From contig NZ_CP134227.1 of assembly GCF_031656915.1 (NCBI RefSeq), positions 3,782,001-3,846,000 of the forward strand: a stretch of DNA of 64,000 nt, read 5' to 3'. Origin of the DNA: Nocardioides marmorisolisilvae. GTDB taxonomy: Bacteria > Actinomycetota > Actinomycetes > Propionibacteriales > Nocardioidaceae. The position numbers and the translations under genes are program-made. Under the pieces are notes generated by a model. The model was given only the letters and a program-made list of their open reading frames with translations. It had not been told where the DNA came from and made no database searches. Shown one piece after another: positions 1,999 through 9,026 of this stretch. The first letter of the stretch is position 1. Each line of letters starts with the position of its first letter.

Positions 1999-3138
1999 TC
2001 AGCGGGTACGGCGAGCGGCCAGGTGCACCATCAGCGCCAGCCGGGTGGCCGGGTCCTCGACGTCGATCCCACATGACTCCCGGGCGCGGTGCAGCCGGTT
2101 GCGGACCGTGTTGGTGTGCACGTGCAGCGACTCGGCCGCGACCGCGACGTTGCCGGCCGAGGCGAGCCATGCGTCGACGGCCGCCACCAGGCCGGTGTCG
2201 TGGGCGGCGTCGTACCGCTCGAGGGCCGCGAGCGGGCTGGCCGCGCGATGGGTGGACAAGAACCCGCGGACCCGGTCGACGAGGACGTCCGCGAACACCT
2301 CGGTCAGGCCGGCCACCCGGCCGGTGTCACCGCGGCGGAGCAGCGCGCGCGCGACGTCGTCGGCGACCGCGCGGGAGTGCGGCAGGTCGATCGCAGCGAC
2401 CGGCTCGCCCAACCCGGCGACCACGGCGCGCCCGGCACGTAGTCGGGTGAGGAAGTCGCCCATCACCCGCCGACCGGCGTCGGCGGGCAGCACACAGTAG
2501 AGGGTGTCGTCCTGCAGCGCGCAGGCCGACCGCGGCGCGACCGCACTCAGGTTCAGGGTCAGCGCACCCGCGAGCCGGCTCGCGGCGTCGGGATCCTCGC
2601 CGCGCACCGCGACCACGACGAGCCGGTCGCCCAGGCCGGTCTGCTCGGCCGCCTGCACGGCGGTCTCCCCACCGCGGAGCAGGTCCGCGACGAGGTCGTC
2701 ACGCTCGCGGGCGACCCGGTCGGCACGACGGCGGGCCAGCAGCACCTGCCTCGCGATCACCGGCGCAGCCGACCTCAGCGCCGCGGCCTCCTCGGGGGTG
2801 GGCGCCCGGCCGAGCGCGGCCCACACCGAGCCGAGGAGCTCGCCCTCACTGCGCAGCGCCACCACGGCACGTGCGGCCATCTGCAGCTCGGGCAGGTCCA
2901 CCACGATGACGTCGTCGGTGTCGCGCAGCTGGTCGAAGACGCCGGCCTCGGCGATCGCGGTCCGGTAGCGCACCGGCACCTGGCGGTTGAGGATGGTCTC
3001 GACCCGGGCGGCGTCGACATCCTGGTGCTCGCCGGCGTACGCGATCACGATGGTGTCGCGGTCCTCGATCGTGACCGGGCAGCCCACCAGCCGGGAAAGG
3101 TCCTGGGCCAGCTCGAAGAGGTCACCGCTCTCGGCCAT
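1999..3138 (-). CDS. PucR-family transcriptional regulator
   Basis: A 379-residue regulator ending in the PucR-type helix-turn-helix (VAVAAESLHVHTNTVRNRL, about residues 331-349). The N-terminal two thirds resemble the sensory and GGDEF-like middle region usual in CdaR/PucR proteins. The start at 3138 is preferred to an in-frame ATG at 3183 because a TAGGCT box lies exactly 7 nt before it, the leaderless layout, and because the longer form would run into the divergent MOSC gene. PucR proteins commonly control neighbouring nitrogen or amino-acid catabolic genes; the adjacent flavin oxidase is the natural target by context, which is inference. Confidence 0.88.
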   Translation of the reverse strand: MAESGDLFELAQDLSRLVGCPVTIEDRDTIVIAYAGEHQDVDAARVETILNRQVPVRYRTAIAEAGVFDQLRDTDDVIVVDLPELQMAARAVVALRSEGELLGSVWAALGRAPTPEEAAALRSAAPVIARQVLLARRRADRVARERDDLVADLLRGGETAVQAAEQTGLGDRLVVVAVRGEDPDAASRLAGALTLNLSAVAPRSACALQDDTLYCVLPADAGRRVMGDFLTRLRAGRAVVAGLGEPVAAIDLPHSRAVADDVARALLRRGDTGRVAGLTEVFADVLVDRVRGFLSTHRAASPLAALERYDAAHDTGLVAAVDAWLASAGNVAVAAESLHVHTNTVRNRLHRARESCGIDVEDPATRLALMVHLAARRTR

Positions 3139-3145
3139 GGGCGCA

Positions 3146-3173
3146 AGCCTAGGGAATCGCGGACGACTAGGAT
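3146..3173. promoter_or_regulatory. Back-to-back leaderless promoters for pucR-like and MOSC genes
   Basis: Only 43 bp separate the two divergent start codons. On the minus strand TAGGCT (3146-3151) stands 7 nt before the ATG at 3138; on the plus strand TAGGAT (3168-3173) stands 8 nt before the ATG at 3182. With transcription starting at or next to each ATG, both mRNAs would be leaderless, and the -35 regions of the two promoters must overlap the opposite -10 region. Confidence 0.55.
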
Positions 3174-3181
3174 CCCCGGAC

Positions 3182-3901
3182 ATGGCAGCGGGTCCCGCGA
3201 GGCAGGTCGGCCGGGTGACGGCCCTGGCCCGCTACCCGGTGAAGTCGATGGCGGGCGAGCGGCTCGATCGGGTCGACGTCGCGTCGCGAGGGCTGGTGGG
3301 GGACCGCGCCTGGGCCGCCTACACCGCCGACGGGGGGATCGGGAGCGGCAAGACCACCCGCCGATTCCGGAAGGTACCGGGCCTGTTGGACCTAGGGGCG
3401 CGGCTCGGGGCAGACGACGTCCCATGGCTGGAGATCGACGGGGTCGAGCGACGTGTCGACGACCCGGAGACCTCGGCGGCACTCTCCGAGAGGCTGGGGC
3501 AGCCCCTGGCGCTGCGGCCCGAGGGGGCTGTGCCGCACCACGACGAGTCCCCGATCCACCTCGTCACCACGTCCGCACGGCGCGCGCTCGAACGCAGCCA
3601 CGGCGGCGCGGTCGACGAGGGCCGGTTCCGCGCCAACGTCGTGCTCGAGACGGACGGCGACGGGTACGTCGAGCACGAGTGGGTCGGTCGGGATCTGGCC
3701 ATCGGCGAGGTGGTGCTCCGGGTCGGCCCGGGGATGCCGCGGTGTGTGATGGTCGACCTCGCCCATGGTGGCGCCGGTCTTCCCGCGGCGCCGGGTCTGC
3801 TGCGCACGATCGGCCGCGTCAACGGGCTCGACCTCGGCGTGCAGGCGTCCGTGGTGAGGGGCGGCGTCCTCCGGCTCGGTGACAGCGCCTTCGTCTGCTG
3901 A
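3182..3901 (+). CDS. MOSC domain-containing protein
   Basis: A 239-residue protein with an N-terminal beta-barrel MOSC_N domain (RVTALARYPVKSMAGE from residue 11) and a C-terminal MOSC domain. The conserved stretch RFRANVVLETDG lies near residue 148, and GPGMPRCVMVDLAHGG near residue 183 carries the invariant cysteine of the family. MOSC proteins handle sulfur for the molybdenum cofactor or reduce N-hydroxylated bases (YcbX/mARC type); the N-terminal domain points to the latter subgroup. The partner and substrate are unknown. Translation is probably leaderless from the ATG at 3182. Confidence 0.88.
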   Translation: MAAGPARQVGRVTALARYPVKSMAGERLDRVDVASRGLVGDRAWAAYTADGGIGSGKTTRRFRKVPGLLDLGARLGADDVPWLEIDGVERRVDDPETSAALSERLGQPLALRPEGAVPHHDESPIHLVTTSARRALERSHGGAVDEGRFRANVVLETDGDGYVEHEWVGRDLAIGEVVLRVGPGMPRCVMVDLAHGGAGLPAAPGLLRTIGRVNGLDLGVQASVVRGGVLRLGDSAFVC

Positions 3902-3937: not shown

Positions 3938-4123
3938 ATGAGCACTCCTGGTGGACGGCGCTGGTACTTCGTGCTGATGGGCGTCTGCATCCTGCTCATC
4001 GTGCTCGCGTGGAACGTCGTACGCCTCTGGTCGGTGCCCGCGGCCGTGGCGATGTCCGTGGTGGCCGCGCTGATCCCGCCGGTGGCCGCGATCGTCGGCA
4101 ACCGCAGCGGCAGCGGCGGTTGA
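3938..4123 (+). CDS. DUF3099 small membrane protein
   Basis: A 61-residue protein with two predicted transmembrane helices (about residues 11-29 and 33-53) and the pattern RRWYFVLMG...W.VVRLWSVPAAVAMS typical of the actinobacterial DUF3099 family. The function of the family is not known. A TACCGT box 6 nt before the ATG suggests a leaderless transcript. It lies between the MOSC gene and the AAA+/VWA pair without obvious functional link. Confidence 0.75.
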   Translation: MSTPGGRRWYFVLMGVCILLIVLAWNVVRLWSVPAAVAMSVVAALIPPVAAIVGNRSGSGG

Positions 4124-4158: not shown

Positions 4159-5571
4159 GTGACGGAAACGACCACCCCTCCCGCCCTGCACACCGTCGGC
4201 CAGCTGCGTGCCAGCGGTCACCAGCACCGCGGGCTGCGCGACGAGATCCGGGCGAACCTGCTCGCCATGCTGGCCGCCGGCGAGGACCCCTGGCCCGGCC
4301 TGCACGGCTTCGAGTCCACCGTCATCCCGCAGCTCGAGCGGGCGCTGATCGCGGGTCATGACGTGGTGCTGCTCGGCGAGCGGGGACAGGGCAAGACCCG
4401 GCTGCTGCGCACCCTCGTCGGGCTGCTCGACGAGTGGACCCCGGTCATCGAGGGCAGCGAGCTGGGCGAGCACCCCTACGAGCCCGTCACCGCCGCGTCG
4501 AGGCGGCGCGTCGCCGAGCTCGGCGACGAGCTGCCGGTCGCCTGGCGGCATCGCGAGGAGCGGTACGCCGAGAAGCTGGCCACGCCGGACACATCGGTGG
4601 CCGACCTGATCGGCGACGTCGACCCGATGAAAGTGGCCGAGGGCCGCTCGCTCGGCGACCCCGAGACGATCCACTTCGGACTGATCCCGCGCAGCCATCG
4701 GGGGATCGTCGCGATCAACGAGCTGCCCGATCTCGCCGAGCGCATCCAGGTGGCGATGCTCAACGTGATGGAGGAGCGGGACATCCAGATCCGCGGCTAT
4801 GTCCTGCGGCTCCCGCTGGACGTGCTCGTGGTCGCCTCGGCCAACCCGGAGGACTACACCAACCGCGGCCGGATCATCACCCCGCTCAAGGACCGCTTCG
4901 GTGCCGAGATCCGCACCCACTACCCGACCCGGATCGAGGACGAGATCGCGGTGATCCGTCAGGAGGCACACCTGGTCGCCGACGTACCCGACCACCTCGT
5001 GGAGATCCTGGCCCGGTTCACCCGGGAGCTGCGGGGGTCGAACGCGATCGACCAGCGCTCCGGGGTGTCCGCACGGTTCGCGATCGCGGGCGCCGAGACG
5101 GTGGCTGCCGCGGCGTTGCACCGGGCCACCGTGCGCGGCGAGCCGGAGGCGGTCGCCCGCATCGTCGACCTCGAGACCGCGGTCGATGTGCTCGGCGGCA
5201 AGGTGGAGTTCGAGACCGGCGAGGAGGGCCGCGAGGCCGAGATCCTGGAGCACCTGCTGCGACTCGCCACCGCACAGACCGTCACCGCGCACCTGGCCGG
5301 GATCGACCTGGGTCTGCTCGTGCAGGCGGTCGAGAACGGCGCCAGCGTCACCACCGGCGAACAGGTCACCGCTCGAGACTTCCTCGCCGGGCTGCCCGCG
5401 CTGGGCGAGTCCGACCTCTACGACCAGGTCATGGAGCGCCTCGGTGCGCACAACGACGGCCAGCGCGCCGGGGCGGTCGAGCTCGCCCTGGAGGGTCTGT
5501 TCCTGGCCCGCAGGATCGACAAGACCGTTCCCGAGATCCGTGGGTCCGGTGGGGAGACCGTCTATGGCTGA
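4159..5571 (+). CDS. AAA+ ATPase, magnesium-chelatase ChlI-like (partner of VWA protein)
   Basis: A 470-residue MoxR/ChlI-type AAA+ ATPase starting at GTG with TAGCGT 6 nt upstream. The Walker A motif LLGERGQGKTR spans residues 71-81, the Walker B region RGIVAINELPDL residues 181-192, and sensor 1 follows in VVASANPEDYTNRG with the RIITPLKDRFG stretch typical of this clade. The C-terminus is a helical lid. It overlaps the VWA gene by 8 nt (ATGGCTGA), so the two are translated together; in this family the ATPase loads or remodels a client through the VWA subunit's metal-dependent adhesion site. There is no cobalt or magnesium chelatase context here and the client is unknown. Confidence 0.85.
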   Translation: MTETTTPPALHTVGQLRASGHQHRGLRDEIRANLLAMLAAGEDPWPGLHGFESTVIPQLERALIAGHDVVLLGERGQGKTRLLRTLVGLLDEWTPVIEGSELGEHPYEPVTAASRRRVAELGDELPVAWRHREERYAEKLATPDTSVADLIGDVDPMKVAEGRSLGDPETIHFGLIPRSHRGIVAINELPDLAERIQVAMLNVMEERDIQIRGYVLRLPLDVLVVASANPEDYTNRGRIITPLKDRFGAEIRTHYPTRIEDEIAVIRQEAHLVADVPDHLVEILARFTRELRGSNAIDQRSGVSARFAIAGAETVAAAALHRATVRGEPEAVARIVDLETAVDVLGGKVEFETGEEGREAEILEHLLRLATAQTVTAHLAGIDLGLLVQAVENGASVTTGEQVTARDFLAGLPALGESDLYDQVMERLGAHNDGQRAGAVELALEGLFLARRIDKTVPEIRGSGGETVYG

Positions 5572-7630
5572 CCCGTTCGTCGGCCGGCACCGGTCCCGCT
5601 ACGCCCGCTACACCGGCGGGCCGGACCCGCTCGCGCCCCCCGTCGACCTGGCGGAGGCGCTGGACGCCATCGGCGCGGACGTGATGGCCGGCTACTCCCC
5701 GGAGCGGGCGATGCGGGAGTTCCTCCGCCGTGGCCCTTCGAGAGCCTCAGGACAAGCGGCCGACCGGCGCGGTCTCGACGATCTGGCCCGCCAGGTCGCG
5801 GAGAAGCGTCGGGAGCTGCTCCAGCGGCACTCCCTCGACGGCACCCTGCAGCAGGTTCGCGAGCTGCTGGACCACGCGGTGCTCGAGGAGCGCAAGCAGC
5901 TGGCCCGCGACGTCGCGATGGACGACGCCGACCGATCGTTCCGGGAGATGCAGCTGGGCAACCTGCCGCCGTCGACCGCGGCCGCGGTGACCGAGCTGTC
6001 GTCGTACGACTGGCAGAGCCGGCAGGCGCGGGAGGACTACGAGCAGATCAAGGACCTGCTCGGCAGGGAGCTGCTCGACCAGCGCTTCGCCGGCATGAAG
6101 CAGGCGCTCGAGGGAGCGACCGACGAGGACCGCGCCCGCGTCAACGCGATGCTCACCGACCTCAACGAGCTGCTCGAGAAGCACGCCCTCGGTGCGGACA
6201 CCCCGGAGGACTTCGCGCAGTTCATGGACCGGCACGGCGACTTCTTCCCGGAGAACCCGCGCGACGTCGACGAGTTGCTCGACGCGCTGGCGAAGCGGTC
6301 CGCCGCCGCCCAGCGGATGCTGAACTCGATGACGCCCGAGCAGCGCGAGGAGCTGATGCAGCTGTCTCAGCAGGCGTTCGGATCGCCGGAGCTGACCGAG
6401 CAGCTGGCCCGGATGGACGCCAACCTGCAGGCGCTGCGTCCGGGCGAGGACTGGGGAGGCTCGGAGCAGTTCGAGGGCCAGGATGGGCTCGGCCTGGGCG
6501 ACGGCACCGGTGTGCTGCAGGACCTCGCGGAGCTCGACGAGCTCTCCGAGGAGCTCTCCCAGTCGTACGGCGGCGCCCGGCTGGACGACCTCGACCTCGA
6601 TGCGCTGGCGCGACAGCTCGGCGACCAGGCTGCCGTCGACGCCCGGACCCTGCAACAGCTCGAGCGCGCCCTGCGCGACACCGGGTACCTCAAGAGGGGC
6701 ACCGACGGGCAGCTGCGGCTGTCCCCGAAGGCGATGCGTCAGCTCGGCCGGGCGCTGTTGCGCGATGTGGCCACCCGGATGTCGGGCCGGCAGGGCCAAC
6801 GGGACCTGCGTCACGCCGGGGCCGCGGGCGAGCTCAGCGGCGCGAGCCGGCCCTGGGCCTTCGGCGACACCGAGCCGTGGAACGTCACCCGGACGATCAC
6901 CAACGCGATCCAGCGGACCGTGGCTGAGGGCGGCTCCGCAGCGGGCGGCGTACGGCTGTCGATCGAGGACGTCGAGGTCCACGAGACCGAGGCGCGCACC
7001 CAGGCCGCGGTGGCGCTGCTCGTGGACACCTCCTTCTCGATGGCGATGGACGGCCGCTGGGTGCCGATGAAGCGCACCGCGTTGGCGCTGCACCAGCTGA
7101 TCACCTCCCGGTTCCGTGGGGACGCCCTCCAGCTGATCGGCTTCGGGCGGCACGCCGAGGTGATGGACATCGAGCAGCTCACCGCGCTCGACGCGATGTG
7201 GGCGAAGGGCACCAACCTGCACCACGCGCTGCTGCTCGCGAACCGGCACTTCCGCAAGCACCCCCAGGCCCAGCCGGTGCTGCTGATCGTGACCGACGGC
7301 GAGCCGACCTCCCACCTCGAGCCCGACGGTGAGGTGTACTTCGGCTATCCGCCGCACCCGCTCACGATCGCCTACAGCGTCCGCGAGCTCGACAACGCCG
7401 GCCGGCTCGGCGCTCAGGTGACGTTCTTCCGGTTGGGCGCCGATCCCGGGCTGGCCCGGTTCGTCGACTCGATGGCACGGCGCGTGGACGGCCGGGTGGT
7501 CGCCCCCGAGCTCGACGACCTCGGCGCCGCCGTGGTGGGCAGCTACCTCGGCTCGCGCGCCTCCCGCGTTGGCGGTGCCGGTGACCACCTCGGCGACTGG
7601 TACACGGGACGGGGGTTCTGGGTCGGCTGA
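5564..7630 (+). CDS. VWA domain protein, ChlD-like partner of the AAA+ ATPase
   Basis: A 688-residue protein with a long helical, acidic N-terminal two thirds (Glu/Arg/Leu-rich, likely coiled coil) and a C-terminal von Willebrand A domain. The MIDAS motif DTSFS begins at residue 488; the later MIDAS threonine is in GTNLHH and the Asp in VTDGEPTS. The start ATG lies inside the end of the ATPase gene. Near residue 59 a short segment, PSRASGQAADR, is encoded by CTTCGAGAGCCTCAGGACAA, which looks like a short repeat sequence inserted in frame in a poorly constrained loop. Such AAA+/VWA pairs are widespread in actinobacteria with no settled role. Confidence 0.85.
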   Translation: MADPFVGRHRSRYARYTGGPDPLAPPVDLAEALDAIGADVMAGYSPERAMREFLRRGPSRASGQAADRRGLDDLARQVAEKRRELLQRHSLDGTLQQVRELLDHAVLEERKQLARDVAMDDADRSFREMQLGNLPPSTAAAVTELSSYDWQSRQAREDYEQIKDLLGRELLDQRFAGMKQALEGATDEDRARVNAMLTDLNELLEKHALGADTPEDFAQFMDRHGDFFPENPRDVDELLDALAKRSAAAQRMLNSMTPEQREELMQLSQQAFGSPELTEQLARMDANLQALRPGEDWGGSEQFEGQDGLGLGDGTGVLQDLAELDELSEELSQSYGGARLDDLDLDALARQLGDQAAVDARTLQQLERALRDTGYLKRGTDGQLRLSPKAMRQLGRALLRDVATRMSGRQGQRDLRHAGAAGELSGASRPWAFGDTEPWNVTRTITNAIQRTVAEGGSAAGGVRLSIEDVEVHETEARTQAAVALLVDTSFSMAMDGRWVPMKRTALALHQLITSRFRGDALQLIGFGRHAEVMDIEQLTALDAMWAKGTNLHHALLLANRHFRKHPQAQPVLLIVTDGEPTSHLEPDGEVYFGYPPHPLTIAYSVRELDNAGRLGAQVTFFRLGADPGLARFVDSMARRVDGRVVAPELDDLGAAVVGSYLGSRASRVGGAGDHLGDWYTGRGFWVG

Positions 7631-7652: not shown

Positions 7653-8891
7653 TCAGCGCACTGACCGGATCCGGTAGACCATCGCGGCCCCGGCCAGGGT
7701 GATCACGCCTGCTGCGCCGAAGAGCATGGGGTATCCGCCCAGCGTGGTGATGAAGAGCCCGCCCAGCAGCGGACCCAGCGCCTGGGGCAACACCGATCCG
7801 ATGTTCATCAGGCCGAGGTCCTTGGCACGGTCCTCGGCGCTGGGCAGCACCGCCGTGATCAGGGCCTGGTCGACCGACATGAACGCGCCGTACCCGGCGC
7901 CGAGCAGCGCCGCGCCGACCATCGCGGTGTCCCACGACGGAAGGGCTGCGAGCAGCAGGGCGGCGACGGCCTGGAGGCAGGACGCCACGGCGACGAAGAC
8001 CCGGCGCCGGCCGGTGCGGTCCGACCAGATGCCGCCGAGGTAGGTCGCGAGCACGGTGAAGACCAGATAGACCAGGGTCAGTTGCACCAGGCGCGAGTCG
8101 GGGTCCGGGACCTTCAGGTCATCGCGCAGGAAGAACAGCAGCTCGGTGGTGCCGAAGGCGTTGCCGAGGTTGACCAGCAGCCGGCCGCCGAAGGCCCAGG
8201 CGAAGTCGGGGTGGTCGCGTGGGCTGATCCACATTCCCCGGGCCACCGACCGGACCGAGAGCGGGGGAGCGGTCGCGGCCGGCGGCGCGTCCCGGTGGCC
8301 CAGCAGGAACGGCAGCGAGAACACCAGCAGGCCGAGGGCGAGCGCGACGAAGCGACCCATCGTGCCCAGGCCCTGGACGGCGAGCAGCCCGACCAGGATG
8401 CCCACCGCCTGCGGGCCGTAGATGGCTGCCGAGGCCATTCCGCGTTGGGACTCGGGCACCTCGTCGGCGATCACCGCGGTCAGACCGGCGGCCATCGCGT
8501 TGTTGCCGAGCGATGCCAGCACCCAGCAGCCGCCCAGCGCCACCCAGTCGGTCTGCAGCCCGGAGAGCAGCAGGCCGAGCACGAAAACGACCACACCGCC
8601 CAGCACCCACACCCGACGACGTCCGAGCCGGGAGCTGGTCCGGTCGCACAGCGCGCCGAAGAGCGGCAGCGTGACGATCGCGACCACGCCGACCCCGCCG
8701 TTGATCCAGCCGAAGTCGCTGATCCGGTGGGCATGGTCGATCCGGTCCAGCTGGTCCGGCAGCACCAGCTGGATCGGCACCAGCCAGGCCATCCAGATGC
8801 CGAACCAGACCAGCGTGAACCGCGTGGTCCAGCCGCGCGAGACGGGTCGGTCGGGCCCCACCCAGGGCGTCGTGGTCACCTGCTCGGTCAT
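7653..8891 (-). CDS. MFS transporter, possibly sugar-linked
   Basis: A 412-residue 12-helix major facilitator. The family loop motif appears twice as DRTSSRLGRRRVW (between helices 2 and 3) and SDRTGRRRVF (second half). The start at 8891 is chosen over an in-frame ATG at 8924 because GGAGGGG stands just before it. It is transcribed away from a GH1 beta-glucosidase across a 135-bp gap, so uptake of a glucoside or export of its product is a reasonable guess. Substrate is inference from context only. Confidence 0.82.
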   Translation of the reverse strand: MTEQVTTTPWVGPDRPVSRGWTTRFTLVWFGIWMAWLVPIQLVLPDQLDRIDHAHRISDFGWINGGVGVVAIVTLPLFGALCDRTSSRLGRRRVWVLGGVVVFVLGLLLSGLQTDWVALGGCWVLASLGNNAMAAGLTAVIADEVPESQRGMASAAIYGPQAVGILVGLLAVQGLGTMGRFVALALGLLVFSLPFLLGHRDAPPAATAPPLSVRSVARGMWISPRDHPDFAWAFGGRLLVNLGNAFGTTELLFFLRDDLKVPDPDSRLVQLTLVYLVFTVLATYLGGIWSDRTGRRRVFVAVASCLQAVAALLLAALPSWDTAMVGAALLGAGYGAFMSVDQALITAVLPSAEDRAKDLGLMNIGSVLPQALGPLLGGLFITTLGGYPMLFGAAGVITLAGAAMVYRIRSVR

Positions 8892-9026
8892 CCGCCCCTC
8901 CGCGATCCCTCCCCGACGGTCCATCTGGCCCGCGGTGCGAGGCTAGTGGCACCGGACCGGGGAGGGTCAACACGCACCGACACGGGCGGGTTTGACCCGG
9001 TCGCCCCCGGACCCGATCATCGGGCC

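Follow-up and report, generated by a model that had tools for sequence, protein, structure and literature searches.

A conserved AAA+/VWA gene pair of Nocardioides marmorisolisilvae is probably a protein-remodelling machine and not a metal chelatase

Introduction

NorQ, a MoxR AAA+ protein, and its VWA partner NorD together insert iron into nitric oxide reductase. In the NorQD complex a finger of the VWA protein sits in the pore of the AAA+ ring, the VWA linker is remodelled, and the metal ion-dependent adhesion site (MIDAS) is proposed to touch the target (PMC9976466, PMC13036017). In Escherichia coli, RavA and ViaA act on fumarate reductase (PMC10585395), and an eLife survey of MoxR-vWA systems lists chelatase, RavA-ViaA and CoxD-CoxE couples (PMC7159879). 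This study concerns a pair of this kind, an AAA+ ATPase gene that overlaps a gene for a VWA protein, in a 64,000-nucleotide stretch of Nocardioides marmorisolisilvae (contig NZ_CP134227.1, positions 3,782,001 to 3,846,000; hereafter the window). The whole genome, a single contig, is 4.23 Mb long.

Machines of this kind are already known, but this subfamily has not been characterised and frequently carries a wrong name. The window pair was absent from the covered parts of the MoxR-vWA survey (PMC7159879), and no paper devoted to it was found in the open-licence literature, as judged by titles and the starts of abstracts. Records and papers use the names "magnesium chelatase" or "sigma-54-interacting regulator". 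Rv0958 of Mycobacterium tuberculosis was treated as a magnesium chelatase in 2024, and the name was used to argue for Mg-porphyrin formation (PMC10774309). The data presented here argue against both names and suggest that the pair is probably a MoxR/ChlI-clade AAA+/VWA machine that remodels a client protein encoded elsewhere, and not a metal chelatase. The question thus shifts to which protein the machine remodels. The family occurs in 92 of the 296 genomes sampled from the phylum and, by printed names, in mycobacteria.

Coupling and distribution of the two genes

The pair comprises the following features.

4159..5571, + strand: AAA+ ATPase gene of the ChlI/MoxR clade, GTG start, 470 amino acids (aa), identified by open reading frame (ORF), Pfam matches and conservation in the phylum
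5564..7630, + strand: VWA protein gene, ATG start at 5564, 688 aa; the ORF list gives a longer frame from 5186
5564..5571, + strand: 8-nt overlap ATGGCTGA of the ATPase stop and the VWA start

Both frames and the 8-nt overlap agree with what the first-pass annotation of this DNA had reported. The same spacing of -8 was found in 39 of the 76 named relatives in which both genes were called (80 named loci were examined), and 65 of the 76 had a spacing of -30 to +100 nt, with start codons chosen by a heuristic. Among 40 stretches chosen by place, both genes were called in 36, and 19 of those 36 fell within the -30 to +100 nt range. The remainder were 15 stretches with the genes 0.4 to 5.5 kb apart, one with the genes on opposite strands and one with a spacing of -410, in which the start was probably called too far upstream. 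In some Nocardioides-type loci (L112, L113, L118, L120 and L088) the two genes were called 375-398 nt apart, without overlap, and a small ORF was called between them in L112 and L118. One divergent copy of the pair (G308, contig C15, 501513-504642) has one stop in the VWA match and two in the ATPase match and is possibly decaying.

Co-occurrence of the genes across actinobacteria, which the first-pass annotation had proposed as a check, was assessed in 296 genomes of the phylum; these genomes are related by descent, so p-values given here and below are guides only. ATPase matches at E values up to 0.001 were found in 178 genomes. The 92 genomes that were kept all had best matches of 1e-24 or better, and the best match among the genomes dropped was near 1e-7. 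VWA matches at E 0.001 were found in 92 genomes, of which G059 and G248 were dropped as weak matches on ChlI-ChlD genes, leaving 90. Co-occurrence was near-perfect: both genes were present in 90 of the 296 genomes, the ATPase gene alone in two (G189 and G210, each about 81% complete) and the VWA gene alone in none, so that 90 of the 92 genomes with either gene carry both. This holds although the two genes sit kilobases apart in some genomes, and the coupling is more than chance. Among near relatives, the VWA gene was found in 28 of 30 genomes, counting the window's own.

The closest named relatives of the ATPase belong to Nocardioides, Aeromicrobium and other actinomycetes, and Tsukamurella and Nocardia, both named Mycobacteriales, carry the pair. 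The mycobacterial genes Rv0958/Rv0959 and MSMEG_5512/MSMEG_5511, named "magnesium chelatase" and VWA protein, very probably belong to the same family; this assignment is based on the order of the genes, their names and the length of mmar_4541 (1392 bp; PMC11237697). The ATPase frame is 463 aa long in four of the sampled genomes, all from a single genus (f7 g10), and this is counted in favour of the kinship with mycobacteria. Outside Actinomycetota, the pair was seen on a plasmid of Thermomicrobium roseum (NC_011961, locus L191, 14986-18511), where a gene for citrate synthase lies two genes upstream of it and genes of the lipoate-ligase family lie downstream.

The pair is independent of CobN

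The database name implies that the two proteins are a split ChlI/ChlD motor serving a distant CobN or a porphyrin chelatase. There is some basis for this name. The ChlI-ChlD-CobN and BchI-BchD-BchH systems provide the closest curated sequence models for both window proteins (BchD/ChlD, Cob-chelat-sub and BchI), and Cob-chelat-sub matches both, its first part on the ATPase and its last part on the VWA protein. However, these matches scored 32-35 bits, far under curated cut-offs of 467-779 bits. A chelatase D subunit has an AAA-like domain at its N-terminus, whereas no AAA match by Pfam or NCBIfam was found at the N-terminus of the VWA protein.

The first-pass annotation had stated that no CobN/ChlH-like large subunit is encoded nearby. 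This is borne out, as the single CobN/ChlH-type match in the genome (2239173-2242406) lies about 1.5 Mb from the pair. A 686-aa ChlI-ChlD fusion frame (2253092-2254987) lies about 11 kb from that CobN gene. That annotation had also named a distant cobN-type gene co-occurring strictly with the pair as the finding that would count against an orphan pair. CobN (PF02514) was therefore searched genome-wide and not just beside the pair, and was found in 70 of the 296 genomes. No association with the pair was detected: 22 genomes had both, 70 the pair only, 48 CobN only and 156 neither (odds ratio 1.02, p = 1.0). ChlI-ChlD, found in 90 genomes at E 1e-60 and used as the positive control, tracked CobN closely, with 64 genomes having both, 26 ChlI-ChlD only, 6 CobN only and 200 neither (odds ratio 82, p = 2.6e-36). 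The pair was not associated with ChlI-ChlD either (odds ratio 0.63, p = 0.13). All 22 genomes that hold the pair and CobN also hold a dedicated ChlI-ChlD, and 70 genomes have the pair with neither CobN nor ChlI-ChlD. Because the pair is independent of CobN while ChlI-ChlD tracks it, and because the genomes with both have their own ChlI-ChlD, a chelatase role for the pair is very unlikely. The remaining points in its favour are that CobN is encoded in the window's genome, that the pair of genome G318 sits about 6 kb from a cobN-chlID gene pair, and that a B12-resistance screen in Mycobacterium marinum yielded a mutant whose transposon lies 49 bp upstream of mmar_4541, the listed orthologue of Rv0958 (PMC11237697).

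Conserved residues of the two proteins

Conservation in the ATPase was assessed in 96 non-redundant sequences (<90% identity), taken from 164 aligned.

4375..4398, + strand: Walker A, GERGQGKT, residues 73-80; G73, G76 and K79 in 96/96, position 80 with 88 T and 8 S
4705..4722, + strand: Walker B, IVAINE; Asn187 (4717-4719) replaces the metal-binding Asp, and the catalytic Glu188 is kept

Residues G73, E74, G76, K79, E188, N229, R246 and R306 were invariant; we read N229 as sensor 1, R246 as the arginine finger and R306 as sensor 2. The metal-binding Asp position of Walker B was Asn in all 96 sequences, and the canonical Asp-Glu of MoxR-class pairs was absent from the set, which had Asn-Glu throughout. 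In a profile alignment GIVAINELPDL of the window protein falls on GILYVDEVNLL of ChlI and GYLYIDECNLL of BchI, with the Asn on their Asp, and the T. roseum protein has the same Asn motif. The earlier claim that all ATPase residues are present is thus incorrect at this position. The putative counterpart of the helix-2 insert of the MoxR/chelatase clade is the conserved segment 144-178, which aligns with ChlI but in which residues 153-175 were modelled with a predicted local distance difference test score (pLDDT) below 50. Asn187 may slow hydrolysis or alter metal use, and as an invariant residue it offers a simple biochemical handle on how such a ring works.

Pfam matches of the ATPase were weak, though over cut-off: Mg_chelatase (32.4 bits), AAA_5 (31.3) and Sigma54_activat (27.1, cut-off 20.2). 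The last of these is the sequence basis for reading the protein as a sigma-54-interacting transcriptional regulator, the name that NCBI uses for the ATPase and also applies in T. roseum and Tsukamurella. GAFTGA is the motif of sigma-54 activators. It was found in the ATPase of none of the 164 loci, the window included (149 distinct sequences), and no DNA-binding domain was found in the ATPase by Pfam. The FLAG-tagged Mycobacterium smegmatis orthologue, which came from an RNA polymerase pull-down, recovered no DNA, though its authors leave contact with DNA or RNA possible (PMC7092591). We consider this function extremely unlikely, and the sigma-54 activator was set aside on the missing motif and DNA-binding domain.

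The VWA protein has the following features.

7004..7549, + strand: VWA domain, about residues 481-662 (Pfam, AlphaFold2 model and Foldseek)
7025..7039, + strand: MIDAS motif DxSxS, D488-S492; the other ligands are T550 (7211-7213) and D578 (7295-7297)
5648..6781, + strand: charged helical N-terminal region, residues 29-406 (AlphaFold2 secondary structure)

The Pfam match was VWA_2 (33 bits, residues 483-580). MIDAS residues D488, S490, S492, T550 and D578 were each conserved in 119/119 non-redundant sequences, in agreement with the claim that the site is complete. The locus therefore has what is expected of a MoxR-class AAA+/VWA system, an AAA+ gene coupled to a VWA gene with a complete MIDAS. 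The N-terminal region had been described as unusually long, charged and helical. It is indeed long and helical, and charged residues (D, E, K and R) make up 31% of residues 1-420 compared to 21% of residues 421-688. "Unusually" is relative, however, as the protein ranges from 637 to 792 aa across 166 loci of the family.

Predicted folds and comparison with known pairs

AlphaFold2 models were built from low-diversity alignments of 65 and 63 rows that were 68-85% identical to the window proteins. The ATPase model had a mean pLDDT of 76.7 and a predicted template modelling score (pTM) of 0.79, with weak stretches at 153-175, 209-219 and 234-254. The VWA protein model had a mean pLDDT of 73.7 and a pTM of 0.41, and showed helices over residues 29-406, all-helical except for a short strand pair, followed by a C-terminal VWA domain. 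In a Foldseek comparison of the models with the PDB, NorD VWA domains of NorQD complexes ranked first, third and fourth for the VWA protein (best E 1.6e-5), and RavA ranked first for the ATPase (E 2e-5). Both NorD and RavA belong to characterised AAA+/VWA pairs. Solved structures were also searched by sequence. The VWA profile matched nothing at E 1 and the single VWA sequence gave three short, chance-like matches (E 0.16 to 0.81). For the ATPase, the sole matches with E values up to 0.001 were ChlI, BchI and Lon.

Like NorQ/NorD, the window pair combines an AAA+ protein with a VWA partner. NorD is of similar size (its residue numbers reach 638, PMC13036017), has an N-terminal domain and a C-terminal VWA domain with a full MIDAS, and provides the best solved fold match of the window VWA protein. 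However, no nitric oxide reductase gene was found among the identified flanking genes of the pair, Walker B has Asn for Asp, and the ATPase is closer to the Mg_chelatase model than to the MoxR-type Pfam models. The resemblance to RavA/ViaA lies in the two-gene AAA+/VWA operon without a fixed third gene and in RavA being the best fold match of the ATPase, whereas no LARA-like beta domain is predicted in the window ATPase, which again differs by its Walker B Asn. ViaA is about 200 aa shorter than the window VWA protein.

Proposed mechanism and its weighing

By analogy with the AAA+/VWA families, the ATPase would form a hexameric ring on which the VWA protein docks through its VWA domain, while the VWA protein, with its MIDAS metal site and its long N-terminal stretch of helices, would hold a client protein that is reshaped by ATP-driven movement of the ring. 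If the pair works like NorQD, the ring may turn or pull its VWA partner, and the N-terminal region and MIDAS may relay that movement to the client. The machine would act in trans, on a client encoded elsewhere, and CobN/ChlH is very unlikely to be that client. The first-pass annotation had proposed an orphan pair that remodels a client elsewhere. This direction stands up in so far as no chelatase third subunit accompanies the pair, with remodelling itself a putative function drawn from the related systems.

Several observations weigh against this interpretation. ATPase activity, the ring, the complex and the client are all putative for this pair. The Pfam score of the ATPase is higher for Mg_chelatase (32.4 bits) than for AAA_3 (23.3) or bpMoxR (15.1), and the G318 locus places a pair near chelatase genes. 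The invariant Walker B Asn could possibly mean weak or no ATP hydrolysis, in which case the pair might be a nucleotide-switched scaffold. The fold matches are also modest. For the VWA protein the pTM of 0.41 is accompanied by a query TM-score of 0.21 and a pilus adhesin at rank 2, while the ATPase match has a query TM-score of 0.36 and a root-mean-square deviation of 17.6, and the 7 matches of the ATPase with E values up to 0.001 include MCM, Lon and NtrX chains. With such low query TM-scores the fold matches support the assignment in kind and are not proof.

Possible clients and partners

Two leads on what the pair works with come from mycobacteria and from gene neighbourhoods, and each is more doubtful than the remodelling function itself. 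The likelier of the two, though still improbable, is that the pair is a ClpC1-linked proteostasis factor that binds the ClpC1 unfoldase as an adaptor, co-chaperone or regulator and not as a substrate. MSMEG_5512 (the ATPase) and MSMEG_5511 (the VWA protein) are both in the M. smegmatis ClpC1 interactome. The ATPase appears in four of its data sets (WT, EQ, NTD and CORE) and is flagged there as a hit of two previous Clp screens in M. tuberculosis; in purified form it bound ClpC1 by microscale thermophoresis in the low micromolar range and was not degraded by ClpC1P1P2 (PMC10433963). However, this interactome is broad, as the two data sets for full-length ClpC1 together hold 191 proteins (PMC10433963). 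Binding in the low micromolar range is weak, and chaperone-like proteins that stick readily often turn up in lists of this kind. The M. smegmatis orthology is based on gene order, domain names and length and not on sequence comparison, and a search of the open-licence literature found no test of ClpC1 function with the pair.

A role as an assembly or repair chaperone for succinate dehydrogenase (SDH) or fumarate reductase, parallel to that of RavA-ViaA, is less probable again. For 14 of the 18 tree rows of one deep clade (within L071-L110), the surveyed stretch around the ATPase gene contained SDH genes, an arrangement that spans eight families (f26, f32, f41, f47, f56, f64, f69 and f73), with SdhA- and SdhB-type cluster members identified by Pfam and the SdhC type by TIGR02046. 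In two of the four exceptions (G142 and G292) the SdhC gene lies beyond the stretch, at distances of 9 and 18.5 kb from the ATPase gene, and the other two have it on another contig. Additionally, across the 296 genomes the pair was associated with b558-type SDH (33 with both, 59 with the pair only, 23 with SDH only and 181 with neither; odds ratio 4.4, p = 1.8e-6). This association is confounded by descent, however. SDH genes were found in 0 of 23 other tree rows and 0 of 80 named loci, suggesting one kept arrangement, and genes for WhiB, polyphosphate kinase and formiminotransferase are often kept there too. Placed on the tree, the SDH label needs 5 changes, on the side of the SDH clade. Moreover, no b558 SdhC match passes the cut-off in 59 of the 92 genomes with the pair, and one passes it in 23 genomes that lack the pair. 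Since the proximity to SDH is confined to one clade, it is a weak lead. In loci of that clade the SDH genes near the ATPase gene are often divergent from it.

A bolder proposal, which we regard as unlikely although less so than either lead taken singly, is that the pair represents an unnamed AAA+/VWA subfamily with a fixed Asn-Glu Walker B ring, which either predates the split of Actinomycetota and Thermomicrobia or was transferred between them. Such a ring might be a slow or switch-like motor, perhaps a non-proteolytic ClpC1 partner, or one that maintains a respiratory enzyme, for example succinate dehydrogenase.

The mycobacterial counterparts appear in two further records. Less MSMEG_5511 protein was present when pafBC was deleted (PMC5656591), and Rv0959 has a single entry among the loci tabulated for mutant fitness in mice (PMC10468300). 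Neither these records nor the leads above, the M. marinum mutant included, point to a specific client by name.

Neighbouring genes and other systems considered

Neighbouring genes were surveyed in the 40 stretches chosen by place, from 39 genomes, and in the 80 named loci, which are the nearest 80 of 525 confirmed relatives. The custom gene caller tends to choose long starts and failed to call some genes of the pair, including the window's VWA gene, and cluster counts are therefore rough; the counts used in the main argument come from other analyses. A conserved neighbour was considered as the client, and none was seen at a fixed place in all clades among these stretches and loci. Some broad neighbour clusters recur, such as c6, c21, c30 and c32. 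Convergent genes of clusters c3, c4 and c5 (28, 24 and 23 members) often follow the pair in Curtobacterium, Herbiconiux, Cellulomonas and others (L111-L190); c3 has no Pfam match at 1e-10, c4 is DUF3090 and c5 is a histidine phosphatase.

Two other systems were compared with the pair. The bpMoxR domain of the MoxR-VWA-beta-propeller ternary conflict system was under its cut-off in the ATPase (15.1 bits against 27). An anti-phage defence system was likewise set aside, as PADLOC gave the ATPase weak RtcR-type matches (20.6 and 11.9 bits) and the VWA protein none.

In the window itself, the following genes surround the pair.

1999-3183, - strand: PucR-type regulator, flanking the pair region
3119-3898, + strand: MOSC-domain gene upstream of the pair and in the same direction (MOSC 42.5 bits, MOSC_N 36.1 bits)
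3938-4123, + strand: 61-aa membrane-type ORF directly upstream of the ATPase gene, DUF3099-like under cut-off (18 against 23.2 bits)
7653-8924, - strand: major facilitator superfamily transporter, flanking the pair region on the other side

The 61-aa ORF was considered as a third component and rejected, as no counterpart was seen next to the pair in the remaining loci compared, many of which were short upstream.

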